This document shows, piece after piece, positions 26,311 through 33,819 of a stretch of 64,000 nt of DNA. Source of the DNA: Acidobacteriota bacterium (GTDB lineage: Bacteria > Acidobacteriota > Terriglobia > Terriglobales > Acidobacteriaceae); NCBI GenBank assembly GCA_021779935.1, contig JAJXZT010000040.1, positions 62,001-126,000 on the forward strand. Reading direction: 5' to 3'. The first letter of the stretch is position 1; every line of letters begins with the position of its first letter. The notes beneath the pieces were generated by a model, which worked only from the letters and a program-made list of their open reading frames with translations, searched no databases and was not told the origin of the DNA. The position numbers and the translations under genes are program-made.

Positions 26311-27089
26311 ATGAAATGCAGCAGAATTCGGCGCCAGCCATTCAGATCGCAGGGCTCACCAAGCGCTATGGCGACTTTACCGCCGTCGATAACCTCTCGC
26401 TCGCCGTACTCAGTGGGGTGATCTACGGATTTCTCGGCCCGAACGGTGCGGGCAAAAGCACTACGATTGGATGCCTGACGGGACTTCTCGATCCGACATC
26501 GGGATCAATCGAACTGCTGGGCGAGCGGTTCAGCAGCGATGCTGTGGCGCTCAAGCGGCGCATCGGTGTGATGCCCGAAGGGCTTGCACTTCTCGACCAG
26601 TTGTATGCCGACGAATTCCTCGTATTCCAGGCGCAGATGTTCGGGCTGGATAAGAAAACCGCGCAGAATCGGACCGACGAATTGCTTCAGACACTTGGAC
26701 TGGCCGACACGCGGAAGAAACGCATCGCCGACTTTAGCACGGGAATGCGCAAGAAGATCGCCTTCGCTGCCGCCGTCATTCACTCGCCGGAAATCCTCTT
26801 CCTCGACGAACCCTTCGAGAGCATCGATCCCACGACGGTCGCGATGCTGAAAGAGTGGCTGCGGCGCTTCGCCGCCGAAGGGCGCACGGTCTTCATGACA
26901 AGCCACGTGTTGGAGACGGTGGAGAAACTTTGCAACCACGTGGCCATCATCAAGGAAGGCAAACTGGCGTGGAATGCCGCGTTGAACGGCGTATCCACGC
27001 TCGAATACGGCGGGCAGCAGTACTCGTCGCTGGAAGAAGTCTTCCTGACGATCACCGGACGGCAGGACAGTTCGTTGAGCTGGATGTGA
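26307..27089 (+). CDS. ABC transporter ATP-binding protein
   Basis: The 260-residue ATPase has Walker [10 protein letters not shown], an ABC signature ([13 protein letters not shown]; degenerate LSGGQ), Walker [11 protein letters not shown] and switch His in MTSHVLE. This is the exporter class used for drugs, lantibiotics or polysaccharide precursors. Start ATG 26307 overlaps the permease stop codon, so the two are coupled. It ends five bases before the tRNA-Arg gene on the opposite strand, at the left border of the integrated element. Confidence 0.92.
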
Positions 27090-27094
27090 AAGCG

Positions 27095-27170
27095 TGGAGG
27101 CCCTGGGCAGAGTCGAACTGCCGACCAACGGTTTAGGAAACCGCTGCTCTATCCACTGAGCTACAGGGCC
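27095..27170 (-). tRNA. tRNA-Arg (anticodon CCT), reconstituted by the integrated element
   Basis: A complete cloverleaf: acceptor GGCCCTG/CAGGGCC, D-arm GCTC...GAGC, anticodon stem GCGGT/ACCGT with loop TTCCTAA (anticodon CCT), a 5-nt variable loop, T-arm GGCAG/CTGCC with TTCGACT. CCA is encoded at 27095-27097. Nucleotides 1-38 (27133-27170) lie inside the 41-bp att repeat; nucleotides 39 onward are flanking chromosome. The tRNA is therefore a chimera of an element-borne 5' half and a resident 3' half. Confidence 0.97.
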
Positions 27171-27173
27171 ACG
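27133..27173. repeat. att site, left copy (41 bp direct repeat)
   Basis: Identical over 41 bp to 33779-33819; the bases just outside differ on both sides (T versus A on the left, G versus A on the right). It covers tRNA-Arg nucleotides 1-38 and three bases upstream of the tRNA, ending exactly at the last base of the anticodon loop. Confidence 0.95.
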
Positions 27174-27200
27174 GGTTGCAATCTACTGATAGGCAGCAAG

Positions 27201-28445
27201 TTAACTAGCATTTGCCACCTCGGTTTTCTGCTGGTCGAAACCAAATAAAACCAATTTGGATTGTACACCGTTAACCTGCTCCTTCAGCAATCGGAGCGCA
27301 GCGCTGTTCGCTTGACGTTTTGATGCCATCAACGCATTGCCATAGACGTTCATCGTCGTTGAAATTTCCGCGTGACGCATCAACTTCTGCTGTACACCCA
27401 CAGGAGCACCAGCAGCATCAAGCAGCGAACGATACGTGTGTCTGAATGTGTGCCAGCCCACACCCTCAAGGCTGATGCCCTGCCCTGCCTTGCGAATGAT
27501 CTTCTGCTGGATGGTTCCCGGCTCATACGGCCTACCCGTTCTTGGGCTGGGAAATACCCATCCGCCAGTAGATGCTGGGCACATGTTTTGCCACTCTAAT
27601 AGTTCGGCTGCGAACGCTGCATCAAGCGGTAAGTCATCTTCCGAATACTCGGTCTTGACGGTATCAACTATCCCGCGAACTACTGCCCTCGTTACCCGTA
27701 CAGACAACTGCTCGAAGTCGAAGTCTGCCCACTTCAGAGCAAGTATTTCGCTGACTCGCAATCCAGTGCAGGCCGCAACCAGAACCATCGTCCGGTACGG
27801 CTGCTCCAGAGAGTCAATCAGCGCCATGCACTGCTCTGGCGTAAGCACTATCGGCCTCTTGCGCCGTTTGGTTGCGCCTTTGATTTCGACTAGCTCCATC
27901 GGGTTACGCTGTGTCGGAAGAATCTGCCACAGCATTGCCCTTTCAAACAGCCGAAAAAGCAAAGCCTTGATGTGTGCCTTCGTCAGCAAGGACACACTCA
28001 GGTGCTTGAGCCATACATCAACCTCAGCAGCCGTTATCGTGCTTACGGTTGCCTCACCAAATTCTGGCTTAAGGTATTTGTCGATGATGGTCAAGTAGCC
28101 TCTTGCTGTCGAAACCTTTAGCGTTCCAAACGTTCGTTGTTCACCGCTCCGCAATTCCGCCAACTTCCGCAGTTGTTCGTCCTCTATGAAACGCTCGCAC
28201 AAACTTGAGAACGAAAGCTCTTGCGAGACCGACTGCGGAGCATCAGCATTGACTTTCCACAACAGTCCTTCAATATGCTTCCATACAGCAGCTTTTGTCG
28301 GAAATTCTTCTGAGCTAAACCGCAATGCGCGGAGCGGAGACCCTTCAATACTCCGATCTGGATACCTCCACTCCCACGCATCTGGCCCTCGCTTCAGTTT
28401 GATCTTCCGTAGGCTGCCACGTACATACCGTTTCCGTGTGAACAT
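27201..28445 (-). CDS. int: Tyrosine integrase of the element
   Basis: The 414-residue protein has an N-terminal arm-binding region, a SAM-like core-binding domain (about residues 75-170) and a C-terminal catalytic domain. Catalytic residues seen in order: Arg in CTGLRVSEILALKW, His-x-x-Arg in WHTFRHTYRSLL, and nucleophile Tyr in STTMNVYGNAL. ATG 28445 has GGAG at 6-nt spacing; an ATG four codons upstream lacks one. It catalyses integration and excision at tRNA-Arg. It is last in a minus-strand run behind a 13-bp gap, and ends 30 bp from the tRNA 5' end. Confidence 0.95.
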   Translation of the reverse strand: MFTRKRYVRGSLRKIKLKRGPDAWEWRYPDRSIEGSPLRALRFSSEEFPTKAAVWKHIEGLLWKVNADAPQSVSQELSFSSLCERFIEDEQLRKLAELRSGEQRTFGTLKVSTARGYLTIIDKYLKPEFGEATVSTITAAEVDVWLKHLSVSLLTKAHIKALLFRLFERAMLWQILPTQRNPMELVEIKGATKRRKRPIVLTPEQCMALIDSLEQPYRTMVLVAACTGLRVSEILALKWADFDFEQLSVRVTRAVVRGIVDTVKTEYSEDDLPLDAAFAAELLEWQNMCPASTGGWVFPSPRTGRPYEPGTIQQKIIRKAGQGISLEGVGWHTFRHTYRSLLDAAGAPVGVQQKLMRHAEISTTMNVYGNALMASKRQANSAALRLLKEQVNGVQSKLVLFGFDQQKTEVANAS

Positions 28446-28458
28446 TCGTTTCTCCATT

Positions 28459-28710
28459 TCAGTTCACGCGGTCAGGTTGGCTTTGGCTGACTGAATTTAG
28501 CTTACTTCTTAACCATTCGTCCAGTTCGGAAGCCCTAAACAACCATTGACCACGGGGAACAAACTGGTATCCCGGTATTGCTCCCGCCTTGGCCCAGCGT
28601 TCAAGTGTCTTGTGGTTGACGTGCAAAAGCTCACCAGCCTGTCTGCTTGAGAGCAGCGACTCGAAAATAGTTGCACAATATTCACTCTGAAGATTCAAGC
28701 CCTGATTCAT
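28459..28710 (-). CDS. Excisionase-type helix-turn-helix protein (MerR-like HTH_17)
   Basis: The 83-residue protein carries a single winged-helix domain of the excisionase family: LLSSRQAGELLHVNHKTLER, WAKAGAIPG, then a Trp-Arg-Phe-like wing (GQWLFRASELDEWL). Such proteins bend att DNA or act as repressors. It lies 13 bp upstream of int and 11 bp downstream of the coiled-coil gene, so the three are likely cotranscribed. A role as the recombination directionality factor is inferred from position. Confidence 0.85.
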   Translation of the reverse strand: MNQGLNLQSEYCATIFESLLSSRQAGELLHVNHKTLERWAKAGAIPGYQFVPRGQWLFRASELDEWLRSKLNSVSQSQPDRVN

Positions 28711-28721
28711 GCTTTGTCCCG

Positions 28722-29165
28722 TTAGAAAATTCCGCGCTCCCGTGCGACAACCCGCAATGCTTTGTACTTGCTGGGATTGAGTTTTGCCAGCGATGCAGCG
28801 GCCATAGCATTGCTCTTGGAGCCAAAGTACCTCGATATTTCGTCGTCCGAGATGTTGTCCGTGACTCCCAGAATCGCGCTGCGCTGTTCGACACGCATCT
28901 GATTCCAGATCGCAAGACCGCCAACGCTACGGATTGCCTTTTCACGCGCTGCCTCTTGCTGCCCTGTTCCCAGAGGAGCGACCGGGCCATTCTTCTTTAC
29001 GGCTGCCGCCGCCGCTTGCAACCGAAGCTGCTCAATCTCTGCCTTCAGTTGGGCAATCTCTTCCACTCTAGTGTCTTCTGCTGGCGCGTTGGCCTGTTCG
29101 GACGGTATTTCTGTGTTTGCTTGTTTGGTGGTTGTTGCTTGTTTCAATTCTTCAGTAAGTTCCAT
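28722..29165 (-). CDS. Coiled-coil protein of unknown function, 147 aa
   Basis: The N-terminal third is low-complexity and Gln/Thr/Glu-rich, followed by a heptad-like helix (VEEIAQLKAEIEQLRLQAAA, about residues 34-55). A compact C-terminal part follows (AAREKAIRSVGGLAIWNQMR ... KLNPSKYKALRVVARERGIF). No family recognised. ATG 29165 has GAGAAG just upstream; the frame continues seven codons. It sits in the int operon between two HTH genes, which suggests a role in element maintenance or regulation, but nothing more can be said. Confidence 0.7.
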   Translation of the reverse strand: MELTEELKQATTTKQANTEIPSEQANAPAEDTRVEEIAQLKAEIEQLRLQAAAAAVKKNGPVAPLGTGQQEAAREKAIRSVGGLAIWNQMRVEQRSAILGVTDNISDDEISRYFGSKSNAMAAASLAKLNPSKYKALRVVARERGIF

Positions 29166-29275
29166 GATCTTCTCATTCACGCACACCCCAAGCGTGTGCA
29201 GTGTTCGGCTGCATCAATCAGCCAGATTGTCGTTGGTATCTGCCCTTCTGGAGAGTGTAGGTAATCTCCCCAGAT

Positions 29276-29318
29276 AAAAAAGACCGGAGCAGGGACGCCC
29301 AGATTTTGCGTCCCACTC
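29276..29318 (-). terminator. Rho-independent terminator inside the element's left operon
   Basis: A 7-bp perfect stem (GGGACGC 29292-29298, GCGTCCC 29308-29314), extended by a GGAG/CTCC helix across a small internal loop, followed on the minus strand by TCTTTTTT. It separates the upstream HTH gene (29375-29560) from the downstream coiled-coil/xis/int genes, so these may need readthrough or their own promoter. Confidence 0.8.
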
Positions 29319-29374
29319 CACGGCCTCACCCGTCCCCGGAGACTAAGACAGGTGGTAATAATTATGTGTGTCTG

Positions 29375-29560
29375 TTAGTTGCTGCCCTCAAGAATAGCGT
29401 TAAGTTGTTCGGTGGTCATGTAGAACTTCCCTCTGACCTTGCGGCAGGGGAACACACCTTCACGGCACAGACGGCGCACGTATTCGTGACTCATGTGGAG
29501 ATGTTCGCTAGCTTCTTTCGTGTTAAATAGTCGGACGATCTCCGACGCAATACCGGACAT
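29375..29560 (-). CDS. Small HTH DNA-binding protein (excisionase family), 61 aa
   Basis: The protein is one MerR-like helix-turn-helix domain: LFNTKEASEHLHMSHEYVRR, LCREGVFPCRKV, RGKFYMTTEQLNAIL. ATG 29560 has AAGAAGG at 4-nt spacing. It is the first gene downstream of promoter P1 and its leader. By size and position it is a good candidate for the element's regulator or excisionase, working with or instead of the 28459-28710 product. Target sites could be the dyads at 29689-29714 or 30093-30136. Confidence 0.8.
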   Translation of the reverse strand: MSGIASEIVRLFNTKEASEHLHMSHEYVRRLCREGVFPCRKVRGKFYMTTEQLNAILEGSN

Positions 29561-29688
29561 AAAGCCTTCTTTCTATCTTCTGGAGATTATTAACCTGTGT
29601 ATGAATAGGGAGAGAGACACTCCCTTTACATCGTTTGTTCGTTGTGTAACTCTTTAGTGTTTGTACATACCGGAGCAGTGTAGAGACA

Positions 29689-29714
29689 CTGTGACCAAAC
29701 CGTCATGGTCACAG
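29689..29714. repeat. 26-bp dyad (operator or RNA hairpin)
   Basis: Perfect 9-bp inverted repeat CTGTGACCA-N8-TGGTCACAG, 129 bp upstream of the small HTH gene. Could be an operator for a dimeric regulator or a hairpin in the P1 transcript. Confidence 0.6.
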
Positions 29715-29988
29715 CGCATACCGTATGCAGGCAGCTTAACTGGCGTGGTTCCCAGAGTCCCCGTTTGACGACTGCGAGAGTCGATTGGTCGGAATTAACG
29801 AGTATCACTCTGGCAGTTTCCAGCAAGTGTTTGTTAGCGTATTTCATCGCCTCGCAGCGGAGCTACTTCGTTCCGCTGTTACGTGGCCAACACTGCCCCA
29901 GATTCAGCCTGTGCGGAGGTCAACCCGACAGACGATGTTCACCTGGGCGCAACTGCAACCCTACTCGCCGAGGTCGCCCCCGGATTTT

Positions 29989-30018
29989 AAACATAAAAAT
30001 ACCGCCTCGATTGGGCGG
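29989..30018 (-). terminator. Leader terminator / attenuator candidate below P1
   Basis: On the minus strand a CCGCC-N7-GGCGG hairpin is followed by TATTTTTATGTTT, starting only about 35 nt after the expected P1 start site. A 16-codon frame (ATG at 30037) spans it, with AAGGA too close for a good ribosome site. A short terminated RNA or attenuation are both possible. Confidence 0.5.
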
Positions 30019-30058
30019 ATAAGACGTGGTAAGTCATCTTCCTTCACTATCTATTATT

Positions 30059-30087
30059 ATTATACACTAAAACCAGCCAGTTGTCAA
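30059..30087 (-). promoter_or_regulatory. Promoter P1, perfect sigma-70 consensus, leftward
   Basis: On the minus strand TTGACA (30087-30082), a 17-bp spacer, and TATAAT (30064-30059). Expected start near 30052, reading toward the small HTH, coiled-coil, xis-like and int genes. Confidence 0.85.
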
Positions 30088-30092
30088 TAGGA

Positions 30093-30136
30093 TATCATGT
30101 AGATATCGACGATGAAATCGACATAACTACATGATA
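30093..30136. repeat. 10-bp inverted repeat just upstream of P1
   Basis: Perfect arms TATCATGTAG and CTACATGATA with a 24-bp spacer that contains two direct copies of ATCGAC. It lies 5 bp upstream of the P1 -35 box. Candidate binding site for an element regulator or recombinase. Confidence 0.55.
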
Positions 30137-30344
30137 CTACGCTACTTATAGAATTATTCTAAATGTGCTAACTTTTCTCCCACTGCCAATTTCTAGTACA
30201 CGAAATTGTGCCATTTACTACTTTCTTGACACTATAGATTGATTATCTGAGGGATTACCGTGTACGAAACGCTGTTACAGAGCAAAGGGTGTCACGCAGC
30301 GCTAGGACTGTATAATACTATGCAACCGACGCAACAACAATTGT

Positions 30345-30373
30345 ATTATACACCCAAATTAGTGAGTTGTCAA
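30345..30373 (-). promoter_or_regulatory. Promoter P2, perfect sigma-70 consensus, leftward
   Basis: On the minus strand TTGACA (30373-30368), a 17-bp spacer, and TATAAT (30350-30345). It shares flanking bases with P1 (CTATTGACAACT and GTGTATAATA). The 250 bp below it before P1 hold no recognisable gene. Confidence 0.85.
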
Positions 30374-30416
30374 TAGCTTTGTGAAACATTTAGAAATCAA
30401 CCATAGCCAATAGCTA

Positions 30417-31112
30417 TTATAAATTGTTCGCTCTAGCTTTCACGTTAGAAAGTATCCTCCGAACCTGTACAGCGCTCCACTCCCCTCCCCTTGCGGTAGG
30501 AATTCCCCGCCTATTTAGCGCTGCTGCAATCTCTCGCAGTGATTCAGCACCATCAGCCTTGATCGCCTCGATTACTGGCAACAAGTCTTCAGCCTTTTTC
30601 CTCGACTTCGCCTGTCGTACCGATGCACTCGCCTTTGCTCCTGCACTCGCCTGAGAGCCAATGGTTCCTCTATCTCCACCCAGAATGACGCCACGCGCTT
30701 TTGCAGCGGCTAGAGCGGCCTTCGTTCGCTGGGAGATCATAGTTGCTTCATACTCCGCAACAGCGGCCAGTACGTGAACGGTAAGCCTGTTTGCGTGTGG
30801 AAAATCAGCAGCGGTAAACTCCACATCGCTGTCCATGAGGTTCGAGATAAACGCGACATTGCGGGCAAGTCTGTCCAGCTTCGCAATAATCAGAGTGGCG
30901 TTATGGATTCGACAGAGCGACAGCGCACGAGCAAGAGCAGGGCGATCATTACGCTTACCGCTCTCTACTTCTGTCACTTCGTCTACAAGTTTCCAGCGAC
31001 CACCATTCAGATACGACAGTACCGCTTCCCTCTGGGCTTCCAATCCAAGGCCCGACTTCCCCTGCCGCTCTGTGCTAACTCTGTAGTACGCAACATACCG
31101 TCCGTTTGCCAT
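30417..31112 (-). CDS. Serine recombinase (resolvase/invertase family)
   Basis: The 231-residue protein has the N-terminal resolvase catalytic domain: nucleophile Ser in AYYRVSTERQGKSG (about residue 11), the motif IAKLDRLARN (about 72-81) and EATMISQRTKAALAAAKARG. The C-terminal HTH region is SLREIAAALNRRGIPTARGG. It is of the small resolvase type, not the large serine integrase type. ATG 31112 has GGAAGGAAACGA upstream; the frame is open 37 codons further. It has its own upstream promoter candidate and dyad. Its role beside a tyrosine integrase is unclear: multimer resolution, inversion, or a relic of a transposon. Confidence 0.92.
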   Translation of the reverse strand: MANGRYVAYYRVSTERQGKSGLGLEAQREAVLSYLNGGRWKLVDEVTEVESGKRNDRPALARALSLCRIHNATLIIAKLDRLARNVAFISNLMDSDVEFTAADFPHANRLTVHVLAAVAEYEATMISQRTKAALAAAKARGVILGGDRGTIGSQASAGAKASASVRQAKSRKKAEDLLPVIEAIKADGAESLREIAAALNRRGIPTARGGEWSAVQVRRILSNVKARANNL

Positions 31113-31154
31113 TCGTTTCCTTCCGTGACGTTTTCTTCTACGTCGGTTGTTGCT

Positions 31155-31183
31155 TATGTAACAGACGCCGCTAGCACTGTCAA
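31155..31183 (-). promoter_or_regulatory. Promoter candidate of the serine recombinase
   Basis: Minus strand TTGACA (31183-31178), 17-bp spacer, TACATA (31160-31155; poor -10). It lies 43 bp upstream of the recombinase start. Confidence 0.5.
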
Positions 31184-31194
31184 CACTTGAAAAC

Positions 31195-31208
31195 TGCACA
31201 ACTGTGCA
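31195..31208. promoter_or_regulatory. Dyad upstream of the serine recombinase promoter
   Basis: Perfect palindrome TGCACA-AC-TGTGCA. Position just upstream of the -35 box suggests an operator or a recombinase subsite. A second palindrome, CTGTATACAG, lies at 31242-31251. Confidence 0.45.
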
Positions 31209-31309
31209 ATCGCACTTTTCCACACAACCAACTGAGTTGAACTGTATACAGAGTCCCTAGCAGAGACTACAGTAGTGCCGCTTCAATCCTTCATCTGGAG
31301 AACTTCTCA

Positions 31310-31525
31310 ATGGCTTACTGTTTTTCTTGTGGCAAAGAACGAGAGGTAGATCATCTCGGGACATGTACTCGCTGTTTTGCGCTGACATGTGGCCTTGAAA
31401 CTTGCACTGGTTCGTGTGTATGCGACCTTCAACCAGAATCATCACTGCTGACGTTCTCGGCCACGCTGAGCAATCGACAGCAACATGGGAAGGTAATTCC
31501 ATGGCCGTGCCCGTCGAAGGCTTAA
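31310..31525 (+). CDS. Cysteine-rich small protein, probable zinc ribbon, 71 aa
   Basis: The first 45 residues hold nine cysteines in metal-knuckle spacing: CFSCGK, CTRCFALTC, CTGSCVC. The C-terminal third is polar and unremarkable. ATG 31310 is preceded by GGAG at about 8-nt spacing and the gene is followed by a good intrinsic terminator (31600-31626), both supporting a real gene. It is the only rightward gene of the element. Function unknown; a nucleic-acid-binding or anti-restriction type role would be a guess. Confidence 0.55.
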   Translation: MAYCFSCGKEREVDHLGTCTRCFALTCGLETCTGSCVCDLQPESSLLTFSATLSNRQQHGKVIPWPCPSKA

Positions 31526-31599
31526 ATCGAATTTAAACGCGAAGTATTCCCCGCTGCGACAGAATTCATGTCATGGTGGGGCTTTCTCGCGCACACGAC

Positions 31600-31626
31600 T
31601 ATGCGGAGGTTGCGCATAAGTTTTTT
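31600..31626 (+). terminator. Rho-independent terminator after the Cys-rich gene
   Basis: A 6-bp perfect stem (TATGCG / CGCATA) with a 7-nt loop, followed by AG and six T. Confidence 0.75.
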
Positions 31627-31695
31627 GCAAATTTTGGAGCTGTCTACATGTTTCCTGGGTATGGCTTGAGGCTATAAGTGAACCAAAGGAAGGAG

Positions 31696-31722
31696 GCTGC
31701 CTCCGTATCCAGAGGAGGCAGC
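31696..31722 (-). terminator. Hairpin after the zinc-ribbon membrane protein gene
   Basis: A 9-bp perfect stem (GCTGCCTCC / GGAGGCAGC) with a 9-nt loop, 14 bp after the stop codon. On the minus strand it is followed by CTCCTTCCTTT, so it is a strong stem with an imperfect T tract. Confidence 0.65.
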
Positions 31723-31736
31723 GTTTAGGCTTCGAA

Positions 31737-32540
31737 CTATAGAACAGTAAGATTCGTGAGCTTGCAGGATGACGAAGAGGCTTGGCTGTTAATGAAGCCC
31801 ATATTCTGCTCTCTGATAACCTTCGTGGATTTCGGCTGGACTATCTGGTAAATCGTGCGCGTATTGCTGTCTATAATCGTTCCGCTTGGGCCAAAATAAT
31901 TGCAAGTGATCTCAATATCCTTAAACCTGTAGGCAGTTGGATTCTTGATTGTAAAATCGGCAATCATCACCGTGCCGAACCCGTCTGTATGCCAATTAAA
32001 ATCGAGTTGCACAGTATTCAGTAAAACTTGCTTTGGATTTACTGGAACCGGGGTCATGGAGCTAGATACCTGTCTGGTGCTGCCGTCCGTGAATAAGTTA
32101 GTTACCCCGCCCAAGAACACCAGCACGAGCAACGCAGTCCAGAATAGTCCAAAAGCCTTTCCTTTCACGAGTATCTCGCGCTTTTTCTCCCAGCCTTTCC
32201 ACGTCGCACTGACATACGCGCTGGCAATGCCAAAGCATATGGTCATCGTAAATGCCACATACTTACCTTCGCTATCAGCACCGATTGCAACAACTTTGCT
32301 TCCAGCAGCGAGGGCAATAACGATGGCAACAGTGGCGATAAAAGCCAGCGCAAACGCTCTGAAAGCCATTCGCCCTGCTTTCTTAATCACTACGCCGGTC
32401 ACGCATGGCTGCTGTGGAGTAGGAATAGCAGCAGGCATAGCTACCGCGCCAGAATTTTCCGAAGATACATTCTGGCCACAAGACGAACAGAACCTTGCAT
32501 CACCTTGCATCGATTGCCCACAACTTGCACAAAACGTCAT
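31737..32540 (-). CDS. Zinc-ribbon membrane protein with extracytoplasmic C-terminal domain
   Basis: The 267-residue protein begins with a double zinc-knuckle (FCASCGQSMQGDARFCSSCGQ lacks its last residue in register; C-x2-C ... C-x2-C, residues 3-22). A Pro-rich linker follows, then three membrane helices (about residues 58-85, 95-115, 130-150). The C-terminal 110 residues look like a beta-sandwich similar in style to FxLYD domains (ADFTIKNPTAYRFKDIEIT). ATG 32540 has GGGAGG at 7-nt spacing. It is 117 bp downstream of the HYTT gene on the same strand. Function unknown. Confidence 0.75.
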   Translation of the reverse strand: MTFCASCGQSMQGDARFCSSCGQNVSSENSGAVAMPAAIPTPQQPCVTGVVIKKAGRMAFRAFALAFIATVAIVIALAAGSKVVAIGADSEGKYVAFTMTICFGIASAYVSATWKGWEKKREILVKGKAFGLFWTALLVLVFLGGVTNLFTDGSTRQVSSSMTPVPVNPKQVLLNTVQLDFNWHTDGFGTVMIADFTIKNPTAYRFKDIEITCNYFGPSGTIIDSNTRTIYQIVQPKSTKVIREQNMGFINSQASSSSCKLTNLTVL

Positions 32541-32657
32541 CAAAGAACCTCCCAAGGGTCTGGGCACATCGCAGCTACACGCCTTAGCATGTGGCATAGT
32601 TTTTGCCCGAAACATTCGGCCACACGTTCAAGTATTCGTCAAATGATTTTCCAATCA

Positions 32658-33287
32658 TCATTCTGGAAAAGCGCTGTTCACTCTGTTACGCGGCCACGAT
32701 ATTGGCAACCAGCCTCCTACAGCATTGTCCTCAGCAATGGAGACAAACTTCTCCACAACGTCTATCTGGGACAAGGGTAGCGACTCCGCAACCAGCCCCA
32801 TGACGTTGTGCTCGTTGTAGCTCTGGAGTCTTGCCCATAACGCGACAGGTAGAGGCACCCCGGCCCGGATCATCAATTCACCGTGCTTGAGCAATTCTTC
32901 TTCTCGCAGACCCAGACGGACTAGACCATTGCCGCGCTCGCACATCTCCAACTGCGTGAGTTGCGCCATGATATTTGCTTCCTCCTCCGCTGTTCCGCCC
33001 TTAAATGTGTTCGGTATCGCTGCCTGAGATTCCCATACCTGATTGCGGCTAAACCAGAGAATAGGCTTACATCTAAGAGGCGAGAATTGTCCCTTGTGGC
33101 GCTCCGGGAGAATGTCGCACAGTATTGCCTCCGCTTTCGCTGGTTCTGCCTTCATTCGAGCCTCAATCTCCGGCCAATCTGGACGGGCTTTCAATCGTTC
33201 CGCAATGAGCAGGTTTTCAGACTTCAGCAATCCTGATTCGACAATTTTGTCGTAGTTGTTCTGGGTCGTGTAATGCCAACAAATCAC
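32658..33287 (-). CDS. HYTT-type protein, possible ADP-ribosyltransferase-like fold, 209 aa
   Basis: The N-terminus ICWHYTTQNNYDKIVESGLL resembles the first strand and helix of PARP/Tpt1/DarT-like proteins (His-Tyr followed by a helix ending in SGLL). Later KPILWFSRNQVWE resembles the second conserved strand, and Glu-rich stretches near the end could supply a catalytic Glu. No named domain can be assigned with certainty. Start is GTG 33287 with AAAGGAA at 9-nt spacing. In the element it is upstream of the zinc-ribbon membrane gene. A toxin or defence role is inference only. Confidence 0.6.
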   Translation of the reverse strand: MICWHYTTQNNYDKIVESGLLKSENLLIAERLKARPDWPEIEARMKAEPAKAEAILCDILPERHKGQFSPLRCKPILWFSRNQVWESQAAIPNTFKGGTAEEEANIMAQLTQLEMCERGNGLVRLGLREEELLKHGELMIRAGVPLPVALWARLQSYNEHNVMGLVAESLPLSQIDVVEKFVSIAEDNAVGGWLPISWPRNRVNSAFPE

Positions 33288-33778
33288 TGTGATGTATTCC
33301 TTTACCGTTTGGTCATTGCTCAGTGCAAACGACGTTGAGTGGATTGGGAGAAGCTGTAGGGCACGTTTACGGCGTAGTAGGGCGCTGGAGGGCTTATCGC
33401 CAAATCCTAAATCAGAAGTACGATCTTGGCGTTTTGTGCAGAAGTGTTTCTCGAACAGTGCCGGTGCGGGTTAGAGTCCCAAATCGTCTATTGCGGAATA
33501 TGAGGGTACTAGTACGAATGTCAGGGCAATGCTTGGCGTGTACATGGATACTGGAGATAAGCCACCGTACCCAATCCCGCTCGCGTCGTACCGCTCAGGG
33601 CTAAAATCATCACTGCAACGTACCGGGAGAAGTACGAGGTAGACATCAAGCTGCTTTCGGAATGCACTGTCACTTGAAACCAAAATCAGACCAAAATAGC
33701 TGTGCTACCTGTGTCTATGCGTGCCTAAACCAAGCTAACCTGACCGCGTAAGTTGTTGATATTCCGTTTGCTTCGAGA
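33288..33778. other. Right end of the element without a recognisable gene (491 bp)
   Basis: Short overlapping frames on both strands show no conserved motif or ribosome site. A stretch near 33463-33480 reads GGGTTAGAGTCCC, similar to a tRNA T-arm, but no cloverleaf closes around it. May be decayed sequence or contain integrase arm sites. Confidence 0.5.
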
Positions 33779-33819
33779 TTAGGAAACCGCTGCTCTATCC
33801 ACTGAGCTACAGGGCCACG
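33779..33819. repeat. att site, right copy, with tRNA-Arg 5'-half remnant
   Basis: Identical 41 bp to 27133-27173. On the minus strand it contains tRNA-Arg(CCT) nucleotides 1-38 and then diverges, so the 3' side of the anticodon stem and everything after is missing. It is a non-functional tRNA fragment that still faces the original upstream region of the gene. Confidence 0.95.

Follow-up and report, generated by a model that had tools for sequence, protein, structure and literature searches.

Two perfect consensus promoters of the sigma-70 type, P1 and P2, lie upstream and on the same strand of a structured RNA which, by sequence comparison, is conserved between two genera of one family. We propose that P2 and probably also P1 drive this RNA, that a terminator-like hairpin meters it, and that the RNA acts for the integrative element on which it resides, a reading that we hold at a probability of roughly 0.47, just short of even odds. 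Mechanistically, P2, and probably P1 as a start further upstream, would be strong sigma-70 promoters of the 6.65-kb element, from which leftward transcription would continue into a structured RNA with a length of roughly 310-380 nt, of which 29983-29672 is the conserved part. A hairpin 34-50 nt past the P2 start would pass only part of the transcripts and would thereby form a gate that sets the RNA level. The RNA in turn would serve the element, most likely as a free and stable molecule, in the way that the sgm-sRNA serves its island SGI1. All positions refer to the window, i.e., the whole stretch of 64,000 nucleotides that was analysed, unless a locus of another genome is named.

The initial annotation had described two perfect leftward TTGACA-N17-TATAAT sites, 286 bp apart, and both are indeed present on the minus strand: P1 at 30345-30373 and P2, with the same spacer pattern, at 30059-30087. 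Both were located by pattern matching and carry the sigma-70-type signature, with hexamers agreeing at 12 of 12 positions at each site and a spacing within 16-18 bp; the transcription starts are expected near 30338 and 30052, respectively. That such a pair is rare, as had been suspected, is borne out by the 4.49-Mb host genome (72 contigs), in which P1 and P2 are the only perfect sites with a spacing of 17. Widening the spacing to 16-18 yields three perfect matches in the whole genome, the third of which (spacing 16) lies outside the window on contig C23, inside a 405-codon open reading frame (ORF) of the same strand. Sites with a spacing of 17 and one mismatch number six, and those with up to two mismatches 72 in all, compared with 54 for a reversed control pattern; near-perfect promoters are thus only mildly enriched in the host, and it is the P1/P2 pair that stands out. 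One might still ask whether two consensus matches without any role have arisen by chance in an AT-rich stretch, since the G+C content of 30003-30416 is 38% (57% in the window) and weaker promoter matches occur there on both strands. We consider this extremely improbable: Among 4000 dinucleotide shuffles of this 414-bp stretch at least one match appeared in six and two appeared in none, and when the whole window was shuffled in this manner 100 times, the mean was 0.02 matches, again without any case of two. Moreover, the agreement extends past the hexamers into the spacer, and the combined shared 29-mer pattern TTGACAACTNNCTNNTTTNNGTGTATAAT has no further match in the host genome with up to three mismatches. 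The twin promoters are real and not a product of chance. The exact shared promoter pattern also had no match in the collections of genome contigs and viral contigs, from which the own genome or very near genomes were possibly left out.

P1 and P2 constitute a direct repeat (D2) of 33 nt with 82% identity. The shared flanks to which the earlier description had drawn attention are found within the spacers, which agree at 11 of 17 bases (binomial p about 0.0006-0.002), and more than 10 bp outside the promoters the likeness is at chance level (26% upstream, 18% downstream). Because the likeness ends at the promoter edges, the 33-bp unit coincides with the promoter, and a duplicated promoter and a site read by a regulator would fit it equally well. 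The proposal of a dual regulator binding over the boxes would accordingly fit the shared unit. Of the nine ORFs scanned, those for the recombinases and for two proteins of the HTH_17/excisionase type are the DNA-binding candidates, and none was assigned to a classical repressor family. Phage P4 has two promoters in tandem, and in lambda PL and PR the operators are located in the spacer. As in PL and PR, consensus-like promoters of an element share sequence between the −35 and −10 boxes; unlike in lambda, both promoters point in the same direction and a CI-like repressor family is absent among the ORFs scanned. Around P1, an inverted copy of its −10 region (30309-30321 vs 30340-30352) is found 18 nt downstream of that region, together with a rightward promoter match (10 of 12 positions, 30289-30316), giving a dyad that encloses the position where P1 is expected to start.

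Between P1 and P2 there is no recognisable gene, in line with the earlier reading, which had assigned about 250 bp with no gene to the second promoter and had named a small RNA as one possible explanation. The idea of a noncoding RNA is supported, a location between the promoters is not: The interval has no match in the 61 genomes searched by DNA, and its main feature is an imperfect palindrome (30093-30136, no strand assigned) with 14-nt arms directly upstream of the P2 −35 box, which as RNA would form a 19-bp hairpin (about 30140-30090, −20.8 kcal/mol) without a U tract. This palindrome could act as an operator or in recombination, or it could mark the 3′ end of a P1 transcript. The conserved RNA lies downstream of P2, at 29983-29672, beyond the coordinates of the initial annotation, and the earlier interpretation was half right, in that the product is likely an RNA, albeit one downstream of both promoters. 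About 34-50 nt past the expected P2 start, a terminator-like hairpin (30018-30002, minus strand) combines five G-C pairs with a U-rich tail (−8.5 kcal/mol). It might stop most P2 transcripts before they reach the RNA, which counts against our preferred reading. The promoters could make short RNAs only, one of about 50 nt from P2 ending at 30018-30002 and one of about 250 nt from P1 ending near the 19-bp hairpin, with the structured RNA having an unseen promoter of its own. The terminator-like site directly past P2 and the strong hairpin before P2 would agree with this, as would the terminator-like hairpin that also precedes the second known copy of the RNA (see below). However, in the window the hairpin and the RNA are only about 18 nt apart, so that a further promoter would have to overlap the hairpin. 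In addition, the hairpin before P2 lacks a U tract, and the 61 genomes show no conservation of the P1-P2 interval. We regard short products alone as unlikely. The predicted P1 transcript up to its hairpin and the short predicted P2 transcript do not fold much better than their shuffles (z −1.54 and −1.08, respectively). Inspection by eye additionally revealed a 16-codon ORF (30037-29987, minus strand) that is preceded by a purine-rich stretch and spans the terminator-like hairpin; it is conceivable that it encodes a leader peptide. Furthermore, a 13-nt direct repeat (29781-29793 vs 30007-30019, 12 of 13 identical) makes UCCGnCCAAUCGA common to the hairpin and a part of the RNA, and by eye it is absent in the second copy.

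The structured RNA (29672-29983, minus strand, the ends being those of the conserved part) begins about 75 bp past P2 and about 360 bp past P1 on the strand of both and spans about 75-390 bp past P2. When 61 genomes were searched with the whole noncoding region, three gave matches: the own genome, a genome of the same family (G015) and a third (G055), in which the match of 40 bp lies in antisense orientation to an ORF of 892 aa and was attributed to chance. The G015 locus, hereafter L005, matches 29902-29672 only, with 72% identity. The predicted architecture starts with a 5′ hairpin capped by a GCGA tetraloop, which is followed by a second arm and then by a multibranch core. The arms of the 5′ hairpin read CCGGGG/CCUCGG in the window and CCUGAG/CUCAGG in L005, with the loop GCGA, and many further substitutions between the copies fall in pairs such that the helices are kept. 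A covariance model built from the window sequence, the structure of which was drawn by hand with both copies in view, scores L005 at 109.5 bits. In the alignment fitted by this model, 12 of 48 pairs are compensatory (5 of the 48 having no letters in L005), compared with 6.0±1.7 after shuffling (none of 500 shuffles reaching 12) and with 0-1 in controls with slid partners. A structure-blind MAFFT alignment gave a consensus fold of 66 pairs, 18 of which are compensatory, against a null of 9.4±2.7 (2 of 500 reaching 18), obtained by shuffling columns within conservation classes, and against 0-3 pairs in slid-partner controls. Its consensus energy is −70.1 kcal/mol compared with −44.3±5.3 kcal/mol for the shuffled alignments (0 of 500), and a slightly longer alignment with 200 shuffles yielded a z of −5.1. 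The compensatory changes thus exceed chance, as expected of a structured RNA under selection, in a comparison of two sequences. Taken singly, the two copies fold only modestly better than their shuffles (z −1.35 and −1.14). Part of the hand-drawn structure was discarded: The outer helix GGCAGUGU/ACACUGCU loses 2 of its 8 pairs in L005, and the structure-blind fold prefers a local helix. We also rejected a protein-coding gene in place of the RNA, as the indels between the copies are not multiples of three and the ORF at 29626-29847 matches no family. With two copies known and the promoters beside only one of them, the RNA family has the status of a candidate.

Folding energy does not decide which strand is transcribed, since the consensus of the antisense strand (−71.9 kcal/mol) is similar to that of the leftward strand (−70.1 kcal/mol). 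On this basis, the RNA could be made rightward, in which case the twin promoters would oppose it instead of transcribing it. Three features of the RNA favor the leftward strand over this option: It has more compensatory pairs (18 vs 14), the GCGA loop is of the GNRA type on this strand, and the conserved unpaired bases, counted on the predicted leftward fold, are rich in A (42 A vs 19 U). The direction of the genes is leftward as well, and we judge a rightward RNA to be quite improbable.

By all searches the RNA is rare. A covariance-model scan of both copies against the 4227 families of Rfam 15 gave nothing at the gathering threshold; the matches listed have E values of 1.3-3.9 and scores far below gathering. 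Neither Acido-1 (RF01686) nor Acido-Lenti-1 (RF01687), described as candidate structured RNAs from Acidobacteria (PMC2864571), appeared in the cmscan of the copies at E values up to 10. A text search of the literature, which cannot reveal an unnamed sequence, found no such RNA. Using overlapping samples of genomes, we detected the RNA by DNA search in 2 of 398 genomes of the family, the own included. In the order, model R2 (E up to 0.01) matched 3 of 397 genomes, namely the own, G015 and G306 (17.3 bits, taken as chance). In the phylum, model R1 (E up to 0.1) matched 4 of 396, namely the own and, at 16-20 bits and taken as chance, G755, G501 and G565; G015, which may have been outside the draw, is not among these matches. 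The 62 genomes of one genus gave no match, a result that carries no weight in a set without a known positive, and the genera of the window and of G015 are represented by one genome each. Weak model matches were dropped because the calibration is rough, because between a third and more than half of the model is passed over in the alignments, and because four of the loci (L064, L066, L074 and L077) lie within long ORFs. On small-search rescoring, L066 (G565) has 13.6 bits and an E value of 0.006 inside a 791-aa ORF, L074 (G306) 17.3 bits and 3e-5 inside an open-ended ORF of 904 aa, and L077 13.2 bits and 7e-4 inside a 1031-aa ORF; L064, inside a 702-aa ORF, has no match with R2. The least secure rejection concerns L065 (G501), which has 19.4 bits and an E value of 6e-5 on such rescoring and overlaps only ORFs of 115-133 aa. 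Plasmids and phages gave no match with the window copy as query; with the L005 copy there was none in plasmids and a single match of 32 bases (E 0.4) in phages. Pattern scans of viral sequences returned 0, 1, 13, 5 and 3 stretches, and outside the pattern itself none of these could be aligned convincingly.

When 27001-33700 of the window is compared with L005, the RNA alone is matched. The genes around it differ: A zinc-ribbon-like ORF precedes the RNA in L005 and other ORFs follow it, up to the contig end about 1.1 kb after the copy. The scan that detects P1 and P2 found no promoter-like site in 1.6 kb of L005, from which it follows that the promoters belong to the element of the window and not to the RNA wherever it is found. 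This weakens the link between promoters and RNA and, together with the small number of copies, counts against our preferred reading, in favor of which stand the two genome-unique perfect promoters upstream on the strand of the RNA. The ORF after the RNA in L005 (1787-2005, plus strand) matches the phage terminase small-subunit family PF10668 weakly (E 0.022, below the cut-off), and the real gene there may instead be an ORF that overlaps it in a different frame. The 11-mer TATGTACAAAC stands after the RNA in the window (29658-29668) and before it in L005 (1320-1330).

The surroundings of the RNA in the window are those expected of a small integrative element. The gene for tRNA-Arg(CCT) occupies 27095-27170, its 5′ half is covered by an att-like direct repeat of 41 bp (27133-27173), and an exact second copy of this repeat lies at 33779-33819 (no strand assigned to either). 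Given an integrase beside the tRNA gene and a partial tRNA repeat at the other end, 6.65 kb apart, we read 27133-33819 as an integrative element in the tRNA-Arg gene, with a G+C content of 50%. Domain searches identified the tyrosine integrase (27201-28457) and an 83-aa HTH_17/excisionase-family protein (28459-28710), which are joined by a 154-aa protein of no recognised family (28722-29186), a 61-aa HTH_17 (excisionase-like) protein (29375-29560), whose gene is the first recognisable one past the RNA, and a serine recombinase with Resolvase and Recombinase domains (30417-31223). All five are encoded leftward, on the minus strand, and the element has several further ORFs of no assigned function. 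The true start of the recombinase is likely 31112, because most alignments of close homologues begin there and a Shine-Dalgarno sequence, GGAAGGAA, is present. By eye, a TTGACA-N17-TACATA site is located upstream of this start (region 31110-31190, minus strand), and the element may thus use TTGACA as a −35 box at other places, too. Relatives of the recombinase occur in Granulicella and other Acidobacteria, in Rhizobiales and in others. Among loci that encode a related recombinase, 33 were examined (12 of the 19 non-own loci from one search and 21 of 21 from another), and none has a promoter within one mismatch up to 1.5 kb downstream; chosen by their recombinase, these loci may belong to other kinds of element. 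The 154-aa protein has matches in 2 of 260 genomes, one of which is the own; in the other (G271), within 1099-1671 of the 3.1-kb locus looked at (L076), a 38-aa stretch near the C-terminus is matched at 50%, beside a small HTH-like ORF, and is possibly a small domain common to such elements.

The main rival interpretation of the RNA is that of a cis-acting leader, resembling an attenuator or riboswitch, of the genes for the HTH_17 protein, the 154-aa protein, the excisionase and the integrase: P1 and P2 would then be the promoters of this operon, and the RNA would control excision in the way in which the leader of phage P4 governs its operon. All genes from the RNA up to and including the integrase lie on one strand, the HTH_17 gene starts about 110 nt past the conserved RNA, and a same-strand ORF starts about 50 nt past the RNA in L005. 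The terminator scan found no site between the RNA and the HTH_17 gene, the hairpin inside 29600-29632 (−10.5) having no U tract. P4 provides a precedent: According to the description in PMC4825925, termination is caused there by an RNA that is processed out of an untranslated transcript, the CI RNA acting by pairing with seqA and seqC. As in the P4 immunity leader described there, an integrative element carries an untranslated stretch with a structured RNA upstream of its genes; unlike in P4, neither copy of the RNA matches the c4 antisense RNA family. The leader reading is, however, weakened by a gap of 188 nt between the HTH_17 gene and the next gene, and by the gene after the RNA, which differs between the two loci. 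Because L005 has the RNA alone in common with the window, its neighboring genes being different, we favor a free product, and consider a leader less probable, though the most serious of the alternatives.

For the RNA as a free product of the promoters, the closest known parallel in layout is the sgm-sRNA of the island SGI1. It is described as island-encoded and as stemming from the 3′ portion of a longer RNA whose promoter has a terminator-like sequence close by, and SGI1 needs it for mobilization and transfer (PMC9299015). In both cases an integrative island has an RNA of its own, whose functional core lies well downstream of the promoter, and several promoter-like sites are found upstream. 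The order of promoter, nearby terminator-like sequence and functional RNA core reported for SGI1 is the order seen here, a likeness of layout. Unlike SGI1, in which, by the same account, the RNA lies between mpsA and oriT of an mpsA/mpsB-oriT module, the element here has no such module that was recognised in the general scan of its ORFs. While the SGI1 RNA was shown to be necessary for transfer (PMC9299015), the RNA here is known from sequence alone; that P1 and P2 are active and make it, that the hairpin meters it and that it acts in trans, we infer from their arrangement.

Small integrative elements tend to be studied for the proteins that they encode, and here two outlier promoters point at a folded RNA without an Rfam match. 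In the most far-reaching version, which we regard as rather unlikely, the RNA would represent a new class of structured RNAs that integrative elements of Acidobacteria encode and that act in trans for excision, transfer or the exclusion of rivals; tandem consensus promoters of a kind rarely used by the host would drive it, and a terminator close to the promoter would meter it. Should the RNA turn out to be a leader, it would constitute a new switch over the excision operon. If, on the other hand, the element proves to express and require it, this would be another island, besides SGI1, that depends on an RNA of its own.
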